A stretch of DNA of 64,000 nucleotides, taken from positions 62,001-126,000 of the forward strand of contig CAIRYK010000040.1 of assembly GCA_903882805.1 (NCBI GenBank). Direction: 5' to 3'. Positions 15,571-24,480 of the stretch are shown here, piece after piece. Source of the stretch: an uncultured Bacteroidota bacterium. GTDB lineage: Bacteria; Bacteroidota; Bacteroidia; Chitinophagales; Chitinophagaceae. The position numbers and the translations under genes were made by a program. The first letter of the stretch is position 1. Each line of letters opens with the position of its first letter. Under the pieces are notes generated by a model. It made no database searches and had not been told where the DNA came from. It saw only the letters and a list, made by a program, of their open reading frames with translations.

Positions 15571-17796
15571 ATGAACAAAATAAAGAAGTTTTTTAGCGTT
15601 TTGCTACTGGCCTCCAGTGCAAGCGTTCTGTCTTACGGAAAGGCTGTAGATGAAAACGCCGCGAAAGTAATTGGTAGTAACTTCCTGATTACCAATCACG
15701 TACAAGGCGTTAACAGCGCTTCAGATCTTTCAACAACCTATATTGCCACTGCAAAAGTAAATGGTAAAACTGTAGTTGATTATTACGTTTTTAATATTAA
15801 TAATGGCAAGGGGTTTGTGATGGTATCTGGCGATGATGTTATTCTGCCTGTACTTGCCTACTCTAACGAATATCCCTTTGATATCAATACCATCAACCCA
15901 AGCGCTAAAGACTGGATTGAAGGTTATCAAAACCAGATAACTTACGTATTGGAGCACAATTTGCCAGCTAACGAAGGTGTGCCACAGCAATGGGCAGATC
16001 TAAAAGTGGCCAAGAAAAATGAACTAGCACGTACTACTGTTGTTACGCCACTCGTTGCTACACGTTGGGATCAGGCTCCGTTTTACAATTATCTTTGCCC
16101 AGGCACAGGTAGTGGTAAGGCAGTAACGGGTTGTGTGGCTACCGCCATGGCGCAAATAATGAAGTTCTGGAACTGGCCTTCTACAGGTACAGGTTATCAT
16201 TCTTATACCGATGCAACATATCCTACTACGGTTTTGGCAGCCAACTACGGTAATACAAACTACCAATGGACATCTATGCCAAACTCAATCACTTCAAACA
16301 ATGCTGCAATTGGTACGCTTATGCTGCATTGCGGTATTGCTGTAGACATGGATTATTCATCTTCTTTGAGCGGCGCTTATGTAATCGAGGCAACTAGCCC
16401 CGTCACAAACTGTGCAGAGTTCGCATTCAAAACATATTTTCATTACAAACGTAGCCTACGAGGTGTAGAACGCAGTGGTAATTCCACCCCGCGTATCAAC
16501 ACTCCGGCATATACTACTGCAAACTGGATTACGTTACTTAAAAACGAATTGAATGCAGGTCGTCCGTTGTTGTATTCTGGTCAGGGTACGAGCGGTGGTC
16601 ACGCATGGGTTTGCGACGGATGGGATGCAACTAACAAAATGCACTTCAACTGGGGCTGGAGTGGTTCTGGTCCGGATGGTTACTACTCGGTTGATGCTAT
16701 TGCGCCGCCGGTATTGGGAACAGGTGGAGGGGGAGGTAACTTCAACTCAAGCCAACAAATTATCATCGGTATCCAACCTGATACTTATCCAACTGGCACC
16801 GGCAATATTAAAATGCAATCGCATCTGAGTTGCACCAACAATTCTGCTATGCAATACAAAGCAGGATTTACTTGCACCGCTAAATTGCTCAACTCAAATG
16901 CAACTTCTTTTACAGGCGACGTTAGCGTACAGGTATTTGATACTGCAAACGTGCTCGTAGGTACTGTTCAAGTTCTTACAGGGCTTACTATACCTGCTAA
17001 TGATAGTTCTGCTGTTTTGAACTTCACTACGTCTGGATTGTATGGTATGATTCCCATGAACTACTACCACATGCAAGTAATGTACCGCAATAGTAGTTCT
17101 GCAGCTTGGACGCCAGTTGCCAACAATGCTACGACCTACTACAACTACAATGCAATGGCCGTTGTGTTGGATAATAACATAGAATTATACGATTCATTAC
17201 ATGTTGGCGCGCACATTCGCACAAGTGGGCAACCGATGACAGTTTCCACTAGAGTTGCTAATAATGGAGGATCTGCTTTTAATGGTACTCTGCAAGCCTC
17301 ACTTATTAATATTAACACTGGCACTACATACCCAGTGCAGACAATTTCAGGCGTGACAATTGGTGCTTTGATGCAGAAACCATATACTTTTTCAAATACA
17401 AGTATGACTATGCCAGGTGGTATGTATGTGTTGGCAATTCAGCATACGCCAACATCTGGCTCACTGACTACTACTGGTAGCATCAGCCCTTACGAAAATC
17501 CAATACTCATTTCGGTATATGGCGGCGTTGGTGTAAATGAGCCAGCTCCTGTTGTAGACAAAGTGAATATCTTCCCTAACCCTGCAACCGACATGTTGAA
17601 TGTACTTACTCCAGGCGCAGTGGCCAGCGAAATCAGCATCTTTGACATTCAAGGCCGTGAAATGAATCGCATCGTACCAGAAGCAGGCCAGTCTTTTGTT
17701 AATATCTCATTGGGCGCTTATGCTAATGGTATTTACATCGTTCAGGTAAAAACAGGCGAAGAAACAGTAACTAAACAAATAGTAGTAGCAAAATGA
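15571..17796 (+). CDS. Secreted C10 (streptopain-like) cysteine protease with T9SS tail
   Basis: A 741-residue exported protease. A signal peptide (about 1-23) is followed by a Spi-type inhibitory propeptide (about 24-140; TYIATAKVNGKTVVDYYVF, GFVMVSGDD). The C10 catalytic domain spans about 150-405, with nucleophile Cys188 in TGCVATAMAQIMKFW and catalytic His344 in GGHAWVCDGWD; HFNWGWSG is the family tryptophan loop. Two Ig-like beta regions fill about 410-650. The C-terminus (about 665-741; VNIFPNPATDMLNV to KQIVVAK) is a type A T9SS sorting domain. The tail implies export through T9SS and cell-surface attachment. The next gene overlaps by 4 nt. Confidence 0.93.
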   Translation: MNKIKKFFSVLLLASSASVLSYGKAVDENAAKVIGSNFLITNHVQGVNSASDLSTTYIATAKVNGKTVVDYYVFNINNGKGFVMVSGDDVILPVLAYSNEYPFDINTINPSAKDWIEGYQNQITYVLEHNLPANEGVPQQWADLKVAKKNELARTTVVTPLVATRWDQAPFYNYLCPGTGSGKAVTGCVATAMAQIMKFWNWPSTGTGYHSYTDATYPTTVLAANYGNTNYQWTSMPNSITSNNAAIGTLMLHCGIAVDMDYSSSLSGAYVIEATSPVTNCAEFAFKTYFHYKRSLRGVERSGNSTPRINTPAYTTANWITLLKNELNAGRPLLYSGQGTSGGHAWVCDGWDATNKMHFNWGWSGSGPDGYYSVDAIAPPVLGTGGGGGNFNSSQQIIIGIQPDTYPTGTGNIKMQSHLSCTNNSAMQYKAGFTCTAKLLNSNATSFTGDVSVQVFDTANVLVGTVQVLTGLTIPANDSSAVLNFTTSGLYGMIPMNYYHMQVMYRNSSSAAWTPVANNATTYYNYNAMAVVLDNNIELYDSLHVGAHIRTSGQPMTVSTRVANNGGSAFNGTLQASLININTGTTYPVQTISGVTIGALMQKPYTFSNTSMTMPGGMYVLAIQHTPTSGSLTTTGSISPYENPILISVYGGVGVNEPAPVVDKVNIFPNPATDMLNVLTPGAVASEISIFDIQGREMNRIVPEAGQSFVNISLGAYANGIYIVQVKTGEETVTKQIVVAK

Positions 17797-18951: not shown

Positions 18952-20811
18952 TTATTTGATAACGCTGATCTTCAATGATTTTTGTTTGTTTACAGTATTG
19001 ATGTTGATGATATACAAACCACTGCTTAGGTCTGTAGTAGAGAAGCTGAATGTTTGTTCGCCGCTTCTTACTTCACCATTCATTATTTCTTTTACTTTTT
19101 TGCCTGTCATATCGCTCAGCGTAATAGTCATCGCGCCGCCAGTTGTTACGTCAACCAATACTGTTGCTACAGTGTTTGCTGGGTTAGGGAATACTCTTGC
19201 GCTGAAGTTAGCATCTGCATTTACAGTAGCTACACTTGAAGGATCTGGAGCAACGTAGCAAGTAAGATCGTAGTTTTCGTTAACTGGGTCGAAATTTGTC
19301 CAACCTCTCATCCAGTTGTCAGATGTTTTACCTGTACCTGCAAATGCGCCTACATAGTTTACTTTTTCAAAGAAAGCATCAGCTGCTTTAGATGTAGTGA
19401 ATTCTGGAGGAACTGCTGGTACATTGTAGTTTGCGTAGCTGCTGGTAGTATCATAGTTCAAAGGAAGATTTGGATTGAACGGATGAGCAGAGTTGAAACA
19501 AATTGGTGAAGTACTGTTTGGGACCAGATTTGGATTTGAAAGGTTGAAAGGGTTACCCAAGAATACAGAACCTGACATAGAAGCATAGGTTTTGTTTTTG
19601 AACGAAGGATTGTTCAGGAAAGCAACCGGACCAGAGAAACCTGTAAGCGTAGACCAATCTGTACCAGTAGAAGTTGTATCGCCCATTGTAGTAGTTGGAG
19701 TCAAAGAGCGTGCGCCATCTTTTACAAAAAATACATCTTTACGAGTGGTAGTAGATGGGAATACTGGTGAACCACAGACAATGTTGTTACGGAACTGGAG
19801 TTCGTTTGTCATGATGTTTGCAACAGTTGAACCATAAGCAGATGAAGATTCGTCGATCAACAAACCTGCTGGCCATCCTGCAAATACACTGTTCAGAATG
19901 CTGATACCAGAACCACGGCGAATGTGTGCGCCTGCAACAAAGTTAGGATCATATGCTGTAGAGGTAGGGCTAACCAATGGACCTATTACCGTACAATTTG
20001 AGAAGATACTTCTGTTCATCTTAGTGTTATCGGCTGGTATACCAGAATAGGTGCCACCCAGATAGCTATCGCTTTCGAAAGCTTTTGAACCACTTAAGTC
20101 AGCGGAATATGGATCTCTGATAATAGACAAGAATTGGTTTTTACCTTGGTAACCTGCATCTGTATCGAAATCGTCATCCCAAGTTCTGTAAGCAACCATG
20201 TGGTGCGTGTTTACGGTACCGCCGAAAAATTCGAAAGCATCGTCGCCGCCATAAGAAGCCTGGATATGATCGATAACTGTACCATCGCCTACGCCGCAGA
20301 AAGTAAGGCTATTTACTTCGTTGTTTGGAGAGAATGCTACACCGCCAAATTCGATACGTACATATTGCATAGTGCCGCTGTTATCGTGTGCATCTGTTCC
20401 GCCATAGAAAGAGCGTGGACCACCTTCTACCTGAGCCTGACCTGCAGTCCAGTTGGTTGGCGCTTTACCGCAAAGAATTACACCACCCCAGTCACCGTAG
20501 GTTCTTGATCCTGGTTCGATGTTAGATGTGAATACAATAGGTTGAGCAGCGGTACCTGCTGCCATGATTTTTGCGCCGCGCTCAATAATCAAAGCTCCTT
20601 TTGTGTCTTTATCACCTTTGATGATAGTGCCTGGCTCAATTGTAAGCGTTGCTCCTGCTGTAACATACACATATCCTTTCAGAAGATACTGCTTGTCGCA
20701 AGACCAGGTAGTGTTTGTTGAGATACTGTCCTTTACTGTAATGGTTGTGTAGGCGAAGGATTTGCAATATGCTGCAATCGCCAAGGCCGAGCAAAGAAAA
20801 AGTTTTTTCAT
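18952..20811 (-). CDS. Secreted beta-helix protein with T9SS sorting domain
   Basis: A 619-residue exported protein with a signal peptide at about 1-20. The body (about 40-400) has the rhythm of a right-handed parallel beta-helix (GTIIKGDKDTKGALIIERGA, YVRIEFGGVAF). There are several Asp/Gly-rich turns, a DDFDTDAGYQGKNQ segment and FGGDDAF-like acidic patches that could bind a metal or anion. The C-terminus (about 545-619; RVFPNPANTVATVLVDV to SLKISVIK) is a T9SS type A sorting domain. It is transcribed in the same direction as the TonB receptor upstream, but has its own promoter with the same six-repeat array, so the two are probably co-regulated. The ligand or activity is unknown. Confidence 0.85.
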   Translation of the reverse strand: MKKLFLCSALAIAAYCKSFAYTTITVKDSISTNTTWSCDKQYLLKGYVYVTAGATLTIEPGTIIKGDKDTKGALIIERGAKIMAAGTAAQPIVFTSNIEPGSRTYGDWGGVILCGKAPTNWTAGQAQVEGGPRSFYGGTDAHDNSGTMQYVRIEFGGVAFSPNNEVNSLTFCGVGDGTVIDHIQASYGGDDAFEFFGGTVNTHHMVAYRTWDDDFDTDAGYQGKNQFLSIIRDPYSADLSGSKAFESDSYLGGTYSGIPADNTKMNRSIFSNCTVIGPLVSPTSTAYDPNFVAGAHIRRGSGISILNSVFAGWPAGLLIDESSSAYGSTVANIMTNELQFRNNIVCGSPVFPSTTTRKDVFFVKDGARSLTPTTTMGDTTSTGTDWSTLTGFSGPVAFLNNPSFKNKTYASMSGSVFLGNPFNLSNPNLVPNSTSPICFNSAHPFNPNLPLNYDTTSSYANYNVPAVPPEFTTSKAADAFFEKVNYVGAFAGTGKTSDNWMRGWTNFDPVNENYDLTCYVAPDPSSVATVNADANFSARVFPNPANTVATVLVDVTTGGAMTITLSDMTGKKVKEIMNGEVRSGEQTFSFSTTDLSSGLYIININTVNKQKSLKISVIK

Positions 20812-20839: not shown

Positions 20840-20917
20840 CAAAAGTAGAATGGGTATGTTATGCCAATATGAACGCCGGATTACTAAAAGGTTATTCGTG
20901 GATTACGCCAATGTTAA
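20840..20917 (-). promoter_or_regulatory. Six 11-bp direct repeats plus -7 element (PhoB/OmpR-type array), copy 1
   Basis: Read on the minus strand from 20917: units beginning TTAACAT, GTAATCC, ATAACCT, GTAATCC, TTCATAT and ATAACAT, each exactly 11 nt. These are followed by ATTC and then TACTTTTG (plus 20840-20847), a perfect TAnnTTTG. The leader to the ATG at 20811 is about 25 nt. PhoB/OmpR-family regulators bind tandem 11-bp direct repeats with TTxACA/TGTCAT-like halves. The regulator's identity is inference. Confidence 0.7.
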
Positions 20918-20922
20918 CACCC

Positions 20923-23754
20923 TTAGAATTTTATTTTGATACCTAAAGAGTAATAACGTCCAGGATAGTAGCTGCGGTAGTCTCTGTCGTTTTTTGAATC
21001 GAATTCATTGTCTCTATTCGTATCTTTTACGAACGATACTCTTGAGCCCAATAGGTTCTGTACGCCGAATGTGAGTATATAATGCTTGTGGAAAGTTTTC
21101 GAAACAGTGAAATCGAGCGACTGGAAGGGTAGTTCACCTATGCTTTCGCCGCCTACGTCGTTTGTGCCGAGCGCATAAAGGCGTGAGCCAAACACATTAT
21201 ACAACAATGATCCCTGGAAACCGTTTTGCAGGCTCTGATAATATATACCGGCATTTACAACATATTGCGACTGACCTTGAATGGTTGATTTAGGTATACC
21301 CGCTTTTACTCTTGTAGTATCAATTTTCATTTCGCTTTTTGCCAAAGACAGATTACCTACAAGCGTGAAGTCTTTGAAGAAGTCAGTTCCTAACTGATTG
21401 TCTACAATACCTAGGTTTTTACGCATATCAAGTTCTACGCCATAGCAATAGGCCTCGTTGGCATTTATGAATGTATACGCTCTACTGTCGCCGCTGCTGC
21501 TGCCGGGTATAATAATGCGCTGAATAGGATTTGTAAAAGATTTGTAGAAAGCGCCCACCTGCACCAGTTCACCCGATGAAGGGTACAATTCGTAACGCAG
21601 GTCGAAGTTTTGAATTTCTGCAACCTTTAGTGTATCGCCTACGTTGATGTTTTTGGTAACTGTAGTTGGGAACAATGAACCTTTGTTTCCGGCCAGTTCA
21701 TCGAAATCGTAGAAGAATATGGGCGCCCACTCTCTGAATTCAGGACGGTTGAGGGTTTTACCGTAAGCTGCGCGCACAAGGCTCTTGTCAGTAAAGTTGT
21801 AAGAAGCATTAACAGAAGGCAGCAAGAACTTAGTTTCAACATCCAGATTGATTGGGTTGTAGTTAACTGATGTATTGATAGACTGAGTATTGAACTCGTA
21901 ACGAGCGCCGCCGAAGATGGTAAACTGCTTGGTAACCGGAATCTTGAATGATACGAAACTGGCTATCAATTTGTTTTTACCGGTATATTCGTCATAGTCG
22001 TTAGTGCCTTCGCTAATTTTGAATGTGTTTGTTCCGCCTATAGAGTCTTGAAATATTTGATCTATTGGCAATTTGTTCAATTCCTGTGCGATTCTACCTG
22101 GCTTTATGATGTAGCTAAACTGGCGTATCTTATTATTTCTTTCCTTGTATTCCAGATAGTTGCCTGCGCTTACATCAAAGCTGAAATTGTCGTTGATCTT
22201 CACTTTTTGCGTAAACTGATGGTTGAAACTGTATGTTTTTTCGTAAAGTGTAGCGTAATATCTGCCACCGCCGTTTACTGGGTCTGTATTGTTTGATATC
22301 TGTGCTTTGTATACTGAATCGGCTCCTTCTACATACTTAATACGCTTCAGATCTGGTTGGTTTCTGAAAAGGTCGGTATAGCCCAAAGTCCAGTTATATT
22401 TTCTGGTGTCTCTGTTGTTTTTGTGGCTACCTGTAAGCTGTGTAGCATAGGTAGCGCGGCTCTCATAGCCCATAGCATAAGCGCGTTCTATTGGCTGTGA
22501 GATATTGGTAGAATCTGGTACTGTATTTCTTACAGTTAGCGCTGAAGTTCCAATCTGGTTGTAGAGATTCTTGAATTCGATTTTAGTATTGCCAATTGCT
22601 ACGCCTACATTATCCATCAATCCTGCCGATACATTGTTCGTCGATTTCTGATCGTTGTAGTTATAGTCTCTTGCGCTGTCTATCCAGTCTTGGCGATGAC
22701 TGGTTATGTTGGTAAATGTATTTGAGTAAGCCAAACCAAGTGTGTTGCCTATTTTAATGTTTTTCAGTTTCCAAACATTTGACAATGCCAGCGAGAAGCG
22801 AGCGTCGGGGCTGGCGGTCTTGTTTTTTACTGCCCAGTCGTTGCTAAAAGCTTTAGACCATGCTCCTATGTTTGTTTTATAGTTAGGGTCTGTGTTTACA
22901 ATTTTGCCGGGTATAGATGCTGGCAGGCTTCTGCCTCCGTCGTCGTAACCGAATTTGTCGGTAGGAGAGGGGGCGTTATAGTTGAAATTAGTACCTGTAG
23001 AGAATTCGCGGCTTGATGTTGAGAGGCTAACGGTAAGCTGGTTTTTATCTGCAAGAGATGTGGTGAAAACTTTTACCATACCGCCGGCAAAGTCGCCGGG
23101 CAGCTCTGGCGATGGCGTTTTAAATACTAATACGCGGTCGATAAGACCCGCTGGTATAATGTCGAAAGAGAAAGCCTTTTTATCTGCTTCGCTGCTGGGA
23201 GTGCTTGCCTCATTAAGCCATACGCTGTTATAGCGCTCGGGCAATCCGCGCACCACTATAAATCGGTCGTCTTGTACGGTTACGCCTGGTATGCGTTTTA
23301 CAACATCAGCGGCGTTCCTGTCTAGCGATTTAGAAATTTGTGAGGCGCTTGTGCCGCTTACTATCGTAGAGCTGGTTTTTATCTCGTTAATAACAGAGTT
23401 TTCGGTGTTGGTAACTTTACCCGATTTTACCACGTGATCTTTTAGCTCGTTGTTTTCGGGAATCAACTTCATATCTATAACCAGCTCTTCGTTGCCGGCT
23501 ATGGTTATGCTTTGTTTATATGTAGTGTAGGTAGCATACTGAAATACTAGTTCGTAAGTGCCTTTTGCTATGCCATTGATTTCATATTTACCGTCTATGT
23601 CGGAAACAGTACCCATGCTTGTGCCGCTGAGCGCTATTACTACACCCGTTAGCGGTGTAGTGTTTTTAGAGTCGTTTACGCTGCCCTTTATACTCCCGGC
23701 AAACGTGTTCAAAGATAAAATGGCTAATAAAATTGTTGTTAAAAACTTGTGCAT
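20923..23754 (-). CDS. TonB-dependent outer-membrane receptor
   Basis: About 943 residues. The start MHKFLTTILLAILSL is preferred over an ATG 30 nt upstream because it opens the signal peptide and leaves the -7 element outside the gene. The layout is a carboxypeptidase-regulatory-like domain (about 20-100; GSIKGSVNDSKNTTPLTGVV), a plug (about 120-230; RNAADVVKRIPGVTVQDDRFIV) and a 22-strand barrel ending in a terminal Phe (GIKIKF). No SusD-like partner is adjacent; the secreted beta-helix protein occupies that position. The Asn/Thr/Tyr-rich barrel strands are typical of Bacteroidota receptors. The substrate is unknown. Shared promoter arrays point to a common cue with the beta-helix protein. 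Confidence 0.93.
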   Translation of the reverse strand: MHKFLTTILLAILSLNTFAGSIKGSVNDSKNTTPLTGVVIALSGTSMGTVSDIDGKYEINGIAKGTYELVFQYATYTTYKQSITIAGNEELVIDMKLIPENNELKDHVVKSGKVTNTENSVINEIKTSSTIVSGTSASQISKSLDRNAADVVKRIPGVTVQDDRFIVVRGLPERYNSVWLNEASTPSSEADKKAFSFDIIPAGLIDRVLVFKTPSPELPGDFAGGMVKVFTTSLADKNQLTVSLSTSSREFSTGTNFNYNAPSPTDKFGYDDGGRSLPASIPGKIVNTDPNYKTNIGAWSKAFSNDWAVKNKTASPDARFSLALSNVWKLKNIKIGNTLGLAYSNTFTNITSHRQDWIDSARDYNYNDQKSTNNVSAGLMDNVGVAIGNTKIEFKNLYNQIGTSALTVRNTVPDSTNISQPIERAYAMGYESRATYATQLTGSHKNNRDTRKYNWTLGYTDLFRNQPDLKRIKYVEGADSVYKAQISNNTDPVNGGGRYYATLYEKTYSFNHQFTQKVKINDNFSFDVSAGNYLEYKERNNKIRQFSYIIKPGRIAQELNKLPIDQIFQDSIGGTNTFKISEGTNDYDEYTGKNKLIASFVSFKIPVTKQFTIFGGARYEFNTQSINTSVNYNPINLDVETKFLLPSVNASYNFTDKSLVRAAYGKTLNRPEFREWAPIFFYDFDELAGNKGSLFPTTVTKNINVGDTLKVAEIQNFDLRYELYPSSGELVQVGAFYKSFTNPIQRIIIPGSSSGDSRAYTFINANEAYCYGVELDMRKNLGIVDNQLGTDFFKDFTLVGNLSLAKSEMKIDTTRVKAGIPKSTIQGQSQYVVNAGIYYQSLQNGFQGSLLYNVFGSRLYALGTNDVGGESIGELPFQSLDFTVSKTFHKHYILTFGVQNLLGSRVSFVKDTNRDNEFDSKNDRDYRSYYPGRYYSLGIKIKF

Positions 23755-23767
23755 GTTTTTTTTGTTG

Positions 23768-23845
23768 CAAAAGTAGAATTGCAATGTGGCGGCATTGTTA
23801 CGGCTATATTATCAAAATGTGAAGCCAAAATGAACTTCATGTTAA
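23768..23845 (-). promoter_or_regulatory. Six 11-bp direct repeats plus -7 element (PhoB/OmpR-type array), copy 2
   Basis: Read on the minus strand from 23845: units beginning TTAACAT, TTCATTT, TTCACAT, ATAATAT, GTAACAA and GCCACAT, each exactly 11 nt, then ATTC and TACTTTTG (plus 23768-23775). Unit number, the ATTC spacer and the -7 octamer are identical to copy 1. No -33 TTG is present at the proper distance, which fits an activator-dependent promoter. Confidence 0.7.
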
Positions 23846-23890: not shown

Positions 23891-23898
23891 TATTTTTG
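23891..23898 (+). promoter_or_regulatory. -7 element of the zeta-like gene
   Basis: TATTTTTG matches TAnnTTTG and ends 6 nt before the ATG at 23905. A TTTG at 23863-23866 gives a slightly long 24-nt spacer. It predicts a leaderless transcript and excludes the TTG at 23896 as a start. Confidence 0.5.
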
Positions 23899-23904
23899 TC
23901 GGGT

Positions 23905-24480
23905 ATGCCCAATCTGTATATAATTTCAGGATGTAATGGCGCCGGTAAAACTACGGCCAGCTTTACTATTTTACCTGAAATACTGGACTGCAAGCAGTTT
24001 GTAAACGCAGATAACATTGCCTACGGATTATCGCCATTTAATGTAGAGAGTGTGGCTATAGAAGCCGGTAAAATAATGCTGCAGCGTATTGAGGAGTTAT
24101 TGGCTATGGGCGATGATTTTGCTATAGAGACGACACTAGCTACACGCAGTTATGTATCGCTGGTACGCAGGGCAAAAGCAATGGGATACAAGGTGTCGCT
24201 TATTTATATATGGCTCAATAGCCCCGAACTTGCGCTGTATCGTGTGGCAGAGCGCGTACGCCATGGAGGCCATAATATACCAATAGAAGTAGTGAAAAGA
24301 AGGTATTACAGAGGGATAAAGAACTTTTTTAAGTTGTTTATGCCCATTTGCGACTTCTGGACAATTGCCGATAATTCATTGGGTACATTGGCGCCGGTGG
24401 CACACAAAGAAGAATTTGAAAATGTGATAACAAATACAGACCTTTGGAACATAATTCAGCAGCAACAGTATGGGTCTTAA
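23905..24480 (+). CDS. Zeta-toxin-like P-loop kinase
   Basis: A 191-residue P-loop protein (start MPNLYIISGCNGAGKTT). Walker A is SGCNGAGKTT near residue 10. The family blocks FVNADNIAYGLSPF (Asp) and FAIETTLATRSY (E-T-T) follow, and arginine-rich RVAERVRHGGHNIP and KRRYYRGIKNFF are the expected phosphate-binding lid. This pattern matches the zeta-toxin/AAA kinase family, whose toxic members phosphorylate UDP-N-acetylglucosamine and poison peptidoglycan synthesis. No epsilon antitoxin precedes it. Instead a 59-residue gene overlaps its 3' end by 11 nt. Many stand-alone members in Bacteroidota are chromosomal and not proven toxins, so toxicity is unproven here. Confidence 0.85.
   Translation: MPNLYIISGCNGAGKTTASFTILPEILDCKQFVNADNIAYGLSPFNVESVAIEAGKIMLQRIEELLAMGDDFAIETTLATRSYVSLVRRAKAMGYKVSLIYIWLNSPELALYRVAERVRHGGHNIPIEVVKRRYYRGIKNFFKLFMPICDFWTIADNSLGTLAPVAHKEEFENVITNTDLWNIIQQQQYGS

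Follow-up and report, generated by a model that had tools for sequence, protein, structure and literature searches.

Tandem 11-nt repeats as predicted PHO boxes of a TonB receptor and beta-helix gene pair in the Chitinophagaceae

The window, that is, the whole 64,000-nt stretch of DNA analysed here, comes from an uncultured bacterium of the Chitinophagaceae (Bacteroidota; contig CAIRYK010000040.1, positions 62,001 to 126,000). It carries two adjacent genes, encoding a TonB-dependent receptor and a surface beta-helix protein, and each of them is preceded by an array of six 11-nt direct repeats in a fixed register to a -7 box. As judged by sequence, these arrays, denoted A and B, are a candidate Bacteroidota variant of the PHO box, and both genes are very probably members of the Pho regulon. 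The arrays, their register, the company of genes in which they occur, and their conservation were computed directly. The best site of the genome is the promoter of the pst operon, and we consider it highly likely that arrays A and B represent PHO boxes in a Pho regulon of the Bacteroidota type, through which the receptor and beta-helix genes would be induced together with pst and a phosphatase gene under phosphate shortage.

The two arrays in the window

Array A, the predicted PhoB operator of the beta-helix gene, occupies 20852..20917 on the minus strand. Its units are, in order, TTAACATTGGC, GTAATCCACGA, ATAACCTTTTA, GTAATCCGGCG, TTCATATTGGC and ATAACATACCC; they are followed by the spacer ATTC (20848..20851, minus strand), whose 4-nt register is conserved phylum-wide, and by the -7 box TACTTTTG (20840..20847, minus strand). 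Array B, the predicted PhoB operator of the receptor gene, lies at 23780..23845, again on the minus strand, and consists of the units TTAACATGAAG, TTCATTTTGGC, TTCACATTTTG, ATAATATAGCC, GTAACAATGCC and GCCACATTGCA, followed on the same strand by ATTC (23776..23779) and the box TACTTTTG (23768..23775). Both boxes fit the Bacteroidota consensus TAnnTTTG, which, together with its position, is taken from PMC9723704. Each array is 66 nt long and its end is separated from the box by 4 nt. The initial annotation had described two arrays of six 11-nt units with one and the same spacer and box, and the sequence agrees with it exactly, on the minus strand.

The pattern shared by the twelve units is N-T-[AC]-A-[CT]-A-T and then four less constrained letters, with A at position 4 in all twelve and T at position 2 in eleven. 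At the same time, the two arrays are identical at just 35 of 66 letters, hence they share a pattern and are not copies of one block. By a model-free score of 11-nt periodicity the arrays fall at fractions 0.00003 and 0.00004 of 228,684 66-nt segments from the window and 14 other stretches. A matrix built from array A alone was applied to 364 kb of the 4.94 Mb assembly (the window and 15 stretches, with the short loci L001-L010 left out). Array B scored 35.4 bits, and the next separate site, at the pst operon, 18.0. Tandem Repeats Finder reported neither array, probably because the units are too diverged.

The pst operon and other sites of the genome

For the genome-wide ranking we relied on a held-out, sequence-only model, R1, trained on 29 arrays from other genomes situated upstream of orthologs of the receptor and of PstS. 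These are 29 of the 33 arrays in the right register; two rows from the genome of the window were dropped, as were L073 (too near the locus end) and L082 (poorly placed). The search covered the whole assembly, and the E-values should be regarded as rough.

The first rank was taken by the promoter of the pst operon, pstS-pstC-pstA-pstB-phoU (38.6 bits, E 4.8e-9). Four units, of which the fourth is weak, are followed here by 4 nt and a -7-like box, and so the same tandem element is found before the pst operon of the genome that carries arrays A and B. Array B is second (32.5 bits, E 4.1e-7); a site on contig C95 is third (25.9 bits), with array A fourth (25.9 bits, E 4.9e-5). The eighth site, C15:27399 (E 0.0055), consists of three units, 4 nt and TACTTTTG. 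The gene that follows it encodes a purple-acid-type metallophosphatase with the Metallophos and Pur_ac_phosph_N domains and a start that looks signal-like by eye; its C-terminal end falls outside the fetched stretch. The negative control was provided by the 20 plug-domain receptors of this genome. Only one of them, the receptor of the window, has an array, and the remaining 19 have none in the 1.5 kb upstream, measured from the plug domain and not from the gene start.

The initial annotation had proposed a Pho-like response acting on both genes and, as a check, enrichment of the repeat near phosphate genes. The first and eighth ranks provide this enrichment and, together with the periodicity in orthologous promoters described below, support the proposed control at the level of sequence.

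The first gene after the pst array (L011:5535-5732) is a remnant of a porin-like gene, 65 aa long, that ends about 270 nt before pstS.

Conservation of the array and of the gene pair

In the family, 30 of 147 receptor rows and 30 PstS loci were fetched, two and one of which, respectively, had no upstream sequence. Under the matrix of the window, the receptor locus of the window itself and 25 of the 27 others with upstream sequence pass p ~0.01, as estimated from 1136 background chunks. Among the PstS loci, 19 of 29 score at least 16 within 1.5 kb upstream, although the background chunks are 600 nt and the PstS windows 1500 nt long, and arrays beyond 1.5 kb would escape. Most of these sites are 1.3 to 1.5 kb away from pstS and precede another gene. 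In L218, the one locus checked, a full-length gene of the porin-like family stands between the array and pstS.

A scan of contigs across the phylum yielded 80 named receptor loci, including those from Chitinophagaceae, Hymenobacter, Runella, Larkinella and Alistipes. Two had less than 200 nt upstream. Of the other 78 promoters, 59 are at or above the 99th percentile of 4178 control windows. The spacing between the array and TTTG in the -7 box equals 8 modulo 11 in 48 of 53 promoters (46 of 48 outside the near clade). As the training set of R1 was chosen for the right register, the register is judged from this test, in which eight near-clade loci are left out. The distances for 504 low-scoring control places are nearly uniform, with 10.3% at 8 modulo 11. 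Thus the 11-bp periodicity that the initial annotation expected in orthologous promoters is present across the phylum, and it is locked to the -7 box.

These data bear on the simplest alternative, a chance pattern in AT-rich intergenic DNA. The units are degenerate and were passed over by Tandem Repeats Finder, as would be the case for such a pattern, but the periodicity rank, the held-out genome-wide E-values of 4.1e-7 and 4.9e-5 and, decisively, the phylum-wide conservation with a fixed register refute it, leaving chance with a negligible probability.

In an alignment of 50 promoters by their -7 boxes, conservation extends from unit -1 to unit -4 and stops there: the fractions of units scoring above 2 are 0.76, 0.96, 0.64 and 0.74 for units -4 to -1, versus 0.14 and 0.10 for units -5 and -6, with a part of the strength of the former four stemming from the selection of these promoters by a good three-unit stretch. 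Hence, while six units are indeed present in both arrays of the window, as initially described, the conserved core has four, and the window's six are an extension that is also seen in several other promoters of the family. In Flavobacterium psychrophilum the -7 box is reported at -12 to -5 (PMC9723704); with this position the last unit of the array would sit at about -27 to -17.

The scan of 119 genomes of the class produced 21 strong sites outside the genome of the window (E 1e-4, strict filters); two of them come from R1 training genomes. Downstream of these sites are the genes of four TonB receptors, three short proteins with only the N-terminal domain of the receptor, one beta-helix protein (39% identical), two PBP_like_2 solute-binding proteins, two PhoB-type regulators, eight porins and one SIS-domain protein. 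Five of the porins belong to the type found before pstS in L218, and three are Porin_O_P or similar. PBP_like_2 is the Pfam family of PstS; the two proteins of this family have no significant BLAST match to PstS of the studied genome.

The receptor gene (CarbopepD_reg_2, plug and beta-barrel domains) occupies 20923..23754 on the minus strand. The mechanically listed open reading frame begins upstream of the -7 box, at TTG 23784, whereas the gene likely starts downstream of it, at ATG 23754. The beta-helix gene is at 18952..20811 on the same strand. Its product has an N terminus that appears signal-like by eye, a right-handed beta-helix according to the model, and a sorting tail of the type IX secretion system (T9SS) at residues 540-615. 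The two genes adjoin each other in the window, as in the F. johnsoniae pairs of the PUSIII/PUSIV type, and a homolog of the beta-helix protein is present within the fetched receptor flank at 103 of 110 loci.

Each array was initially taken to serve one of the two genes. For the receptor this extends to much of the phylum, as described above. For the beta-helix gene, 14 of 75 upstream windows reach the threshold, namely 7 of 9 loci with a protein identity of 55% or more versus 7 of 66 other loci. In most of the phylum this gene comes after the receptor and lacks a separate array. A beta-helix gene under separate control is hence mainly a trait of near relatives: it is common there and rare elsewhere. 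The anchoring of the protein varies as well, with a T9SS tail in the near clade and, in distant Bacteroidota orthologs, a lipoprotein-like N terminus (LxxC followed by acidic residues, by eye). By eye, this looks like one domain with two routes to the cell surface. The protein also has a strongly conserved acidic cluster, GDD...DDDFDTD...FESD, which may bind metal.

Two other genes were observed nearby. One, at 15571-17796, encodes a C10-family peptidase with a Spi inhibitor propeptide and a T9SS tail; the other, at 23896-24480, is a small zeta-toxin/AAA_33-type kinase-like gene divergent from the receptor gene.

The regulator, related systems and the predicted mechanism

The likely PhoB ortholog of the genome is encoded at G000:C56:21271-21954, on a contig different from that of the receptor and beta-helix pair. 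It is accompanied by a kinase with the same Pfam domains as those listed for PhoBR of F. johnsoniae. Orthologs of this regulator (PhoB_C56) are present in 138 of 144 family genomes, and in at least 21 family genomes the ortholog is no more than 10 kb from the homologous receptor, a lower bound obtained from 95 of 147 receptor rows and 44 of 140 PhoB rows. Homologs with 50-57% identity to PhoB_C56 are found in the fetched receptor flank at 7 of 110 loci; the identity of another regulator of the same genome, C92, to proteins in these same seven flanks is at most 34%.

This neighbourhood bears on another possible description of the arrays, namely, that they are operators of a different regulator of the OmpR/PhoB family, for instance an ArcA-like redox regulator, and that phosphate genes share them secondarily. 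ArcA-like regulators favour 11-nt spaced direct repeats of the TTAA type. The genome contains seven near-full-length matches to the PhoB model, hence several OmpR-family regulators, and the motif of PhoP from Riemerella anatipestifer is reported to be similar to that of E. coli ArcA (PMC9603813). However, the strongest site of the genome is that of pst, the strong sites of the class precede porins, PhoB-type genes and binding proteins, and it is PhoB_C56, rather than C92, that recurs near the receptor. We therefore consider control by another regulator improbable and retain the assignment of the arrays to PhoB.

Several observations weigh against this assignment. Four of the leading R1 sites precede genes without an evident role in phosphorus metabolism. 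The third (L122:2972-3015, or G000:C95:45973-46019) has four good units before a 467-aa open reading frame without a Pfam match, and the usual place of the -7 box is empty. The fifth (C87:151992) precedes a CHU_C T9SS protein, the sixth (C54) a ribonuclease H-like gene, and the seventh (L125:7613-7667, G000:C60), with five units in the right register, a 2526-aa repeat protein. PstS was found in just 27 of 147 family genomes; the receptor therefore occurs in many genomes without PstS and is not bound to the Pst system. PhoB_C56 scores 210 bits on TIGR02154, under the cut-off of 296 bits and close to C92 with 207; its identity rests on the gene neighbourhood. The phoBR genes of the studied genome have no array, although two genomes of the class do have one before PhoB-type genes. 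Finally, 19 of the 78 phylum receptor promoters are below the threshold, including all three from Parabacteroides and the one from Dysgonomonas, and 98 of the 119 class genomes have no match at E 1e-4 under the strict filters.

Among the known systems, the PHO box of E. coli PhoB and others is similar in its architecture: direct repeats of 11 nt stand in tandem before pst and scavenging genes, and in each repeat seven letters are better conserved than the other four (PMC4415409). The PHO boxes described there comprise two such repeats, with a sequence that differs from species to species. The head of the E. coli consensus is CTGTCAT (PMC3465305), whereas here it is TTAACAT; given the variation between species, this mismatch excludes the E. 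coli type only. Unlike the E. coli box, the arrays considered here have a four-unit core, extend to six or more units, and are locked 4 nt before the Bacteroidota TAnnTTTG. Within the Bacteroidota, PhoP of R. anatipestifer is a Pho-type regulator whose motif, obtained by DNA affinity purification sequencing and with binding shown by shift assays, has TTTAACA as the most conserved letters; the sections of that paper available to us describe neither a tandem array nor a -7 register (PMC9603813). PhoB of Bacteroides fragilis was shown to bind the pst (pstC) promoter, with no box sequence given in the available part of the report (PMC3547664). In the literature searched, partly in excerpts, there was no printed account of the array or its -7 register in the Bacteroidota, the Riemerella motif being the nearest.

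The closest counterpart of the gene pair is found in F. johnsoniae. We take IPR011050, assigned to Fjoh_0546, to be the pectin-lyase fold. Phosphate depletion induces the receptor Fjoh_0545 and the lipoprotein FII, Fjoh_0546 (IPR011050), of the phoBR cluster, and likewise FI and its receptor; FI to FIII weakly resemble pectate lyases or polygalacturonases (PMC8115612). PUSIII and PUSIV thus combine a TonB-dependent transporter with a pectate-lyase-like surface protein, and by this description they resemble the pair studied here (PMC8115612). PUSIV sits in the phoBR cluster; in some relatives a PhoB ortholog likewise lies near the receptor, but the window pair itself is not beside phoBR. Moreover, the window has one array per gene and a beta-helix protein with a T9SS tail, whereas the partner in F. 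johnsoniae is an F-form lipoprotein (FI, FII).

The following mechanism is suggested by these patterns. Under phosphate shortage, phosphorylated PhoB, likely the C56 ortholog, would occupy the 11-nt units in head-to-tail order, probably with a single monomer on each. The four units nearest the -7 box would span about -60 to -17, a stretch that takes in the position of a -33 box, and PhoB fixed 4 nt from the -7 box would recruit RNA polymerase by contact with its main sigma factor, with the two extra upstream units making the binding stronger. As a result, a TonB-dependent importer of the outer membrane and a beta-helix protein exposed at the surface would be co-induced along with pst and the phosphatase, and the pair would take up a phosphorus compound.

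An alternative is that the arrays are Pho operators mainly for repression or fine tuning, with another activator driving expression from the -7 box. The arrays do overlie the place of the -33 box, where a bound protein could block the polymerase, an argument from geometry only. However, the fixed 4-nt register, common to pst promoters, is what an activator touching the sigma factor needs, and in F. johnsoniae phosphate depletion strongly induces the counterpart genes (PMC8115612). Hence we regard repression as very unlikely and activation by PhoB as the preferred mechanism.

Our best guess from the beta-helix fold, the TonB-type receptor and the example of F. johnsoniae is that the imported substrate is a phosphorylated glycan or another form of organic phosphorus. 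It is also possible, although somewhat less likely than not, that phosphorus import of this kind is phylum-wide in the Bacteroidota: a PhoB-controlled TonB transporter whose dedicated surface partner is a beta-helix protein, not one of the SusD type, for the capture or cleavage of a phosphorylated glycan or another organic phosphorus compound, with a four-unit PhoB array 4 nt before the unusual -7 box as a rigid promoter rule. Such a rule would imply that PhoB stands in for the contact of the main sigma factor at -33.

The Bacteroidota rank among the main consumers of organic phosphorus in soils, waters and the gut. The rule is readable, 11-nt units of the TTAACAT type in a fixed register to TAnnTTTG, and candidate Pho regulons may be listed with it throughout the phylum from sequence alone. 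It also raises the mechanistic question of how PhoB would activate a polymerase with a different promoter code, and it flags the receptor and beta-helix pair as a predicted phosphorus importer whose substrate can be sought.

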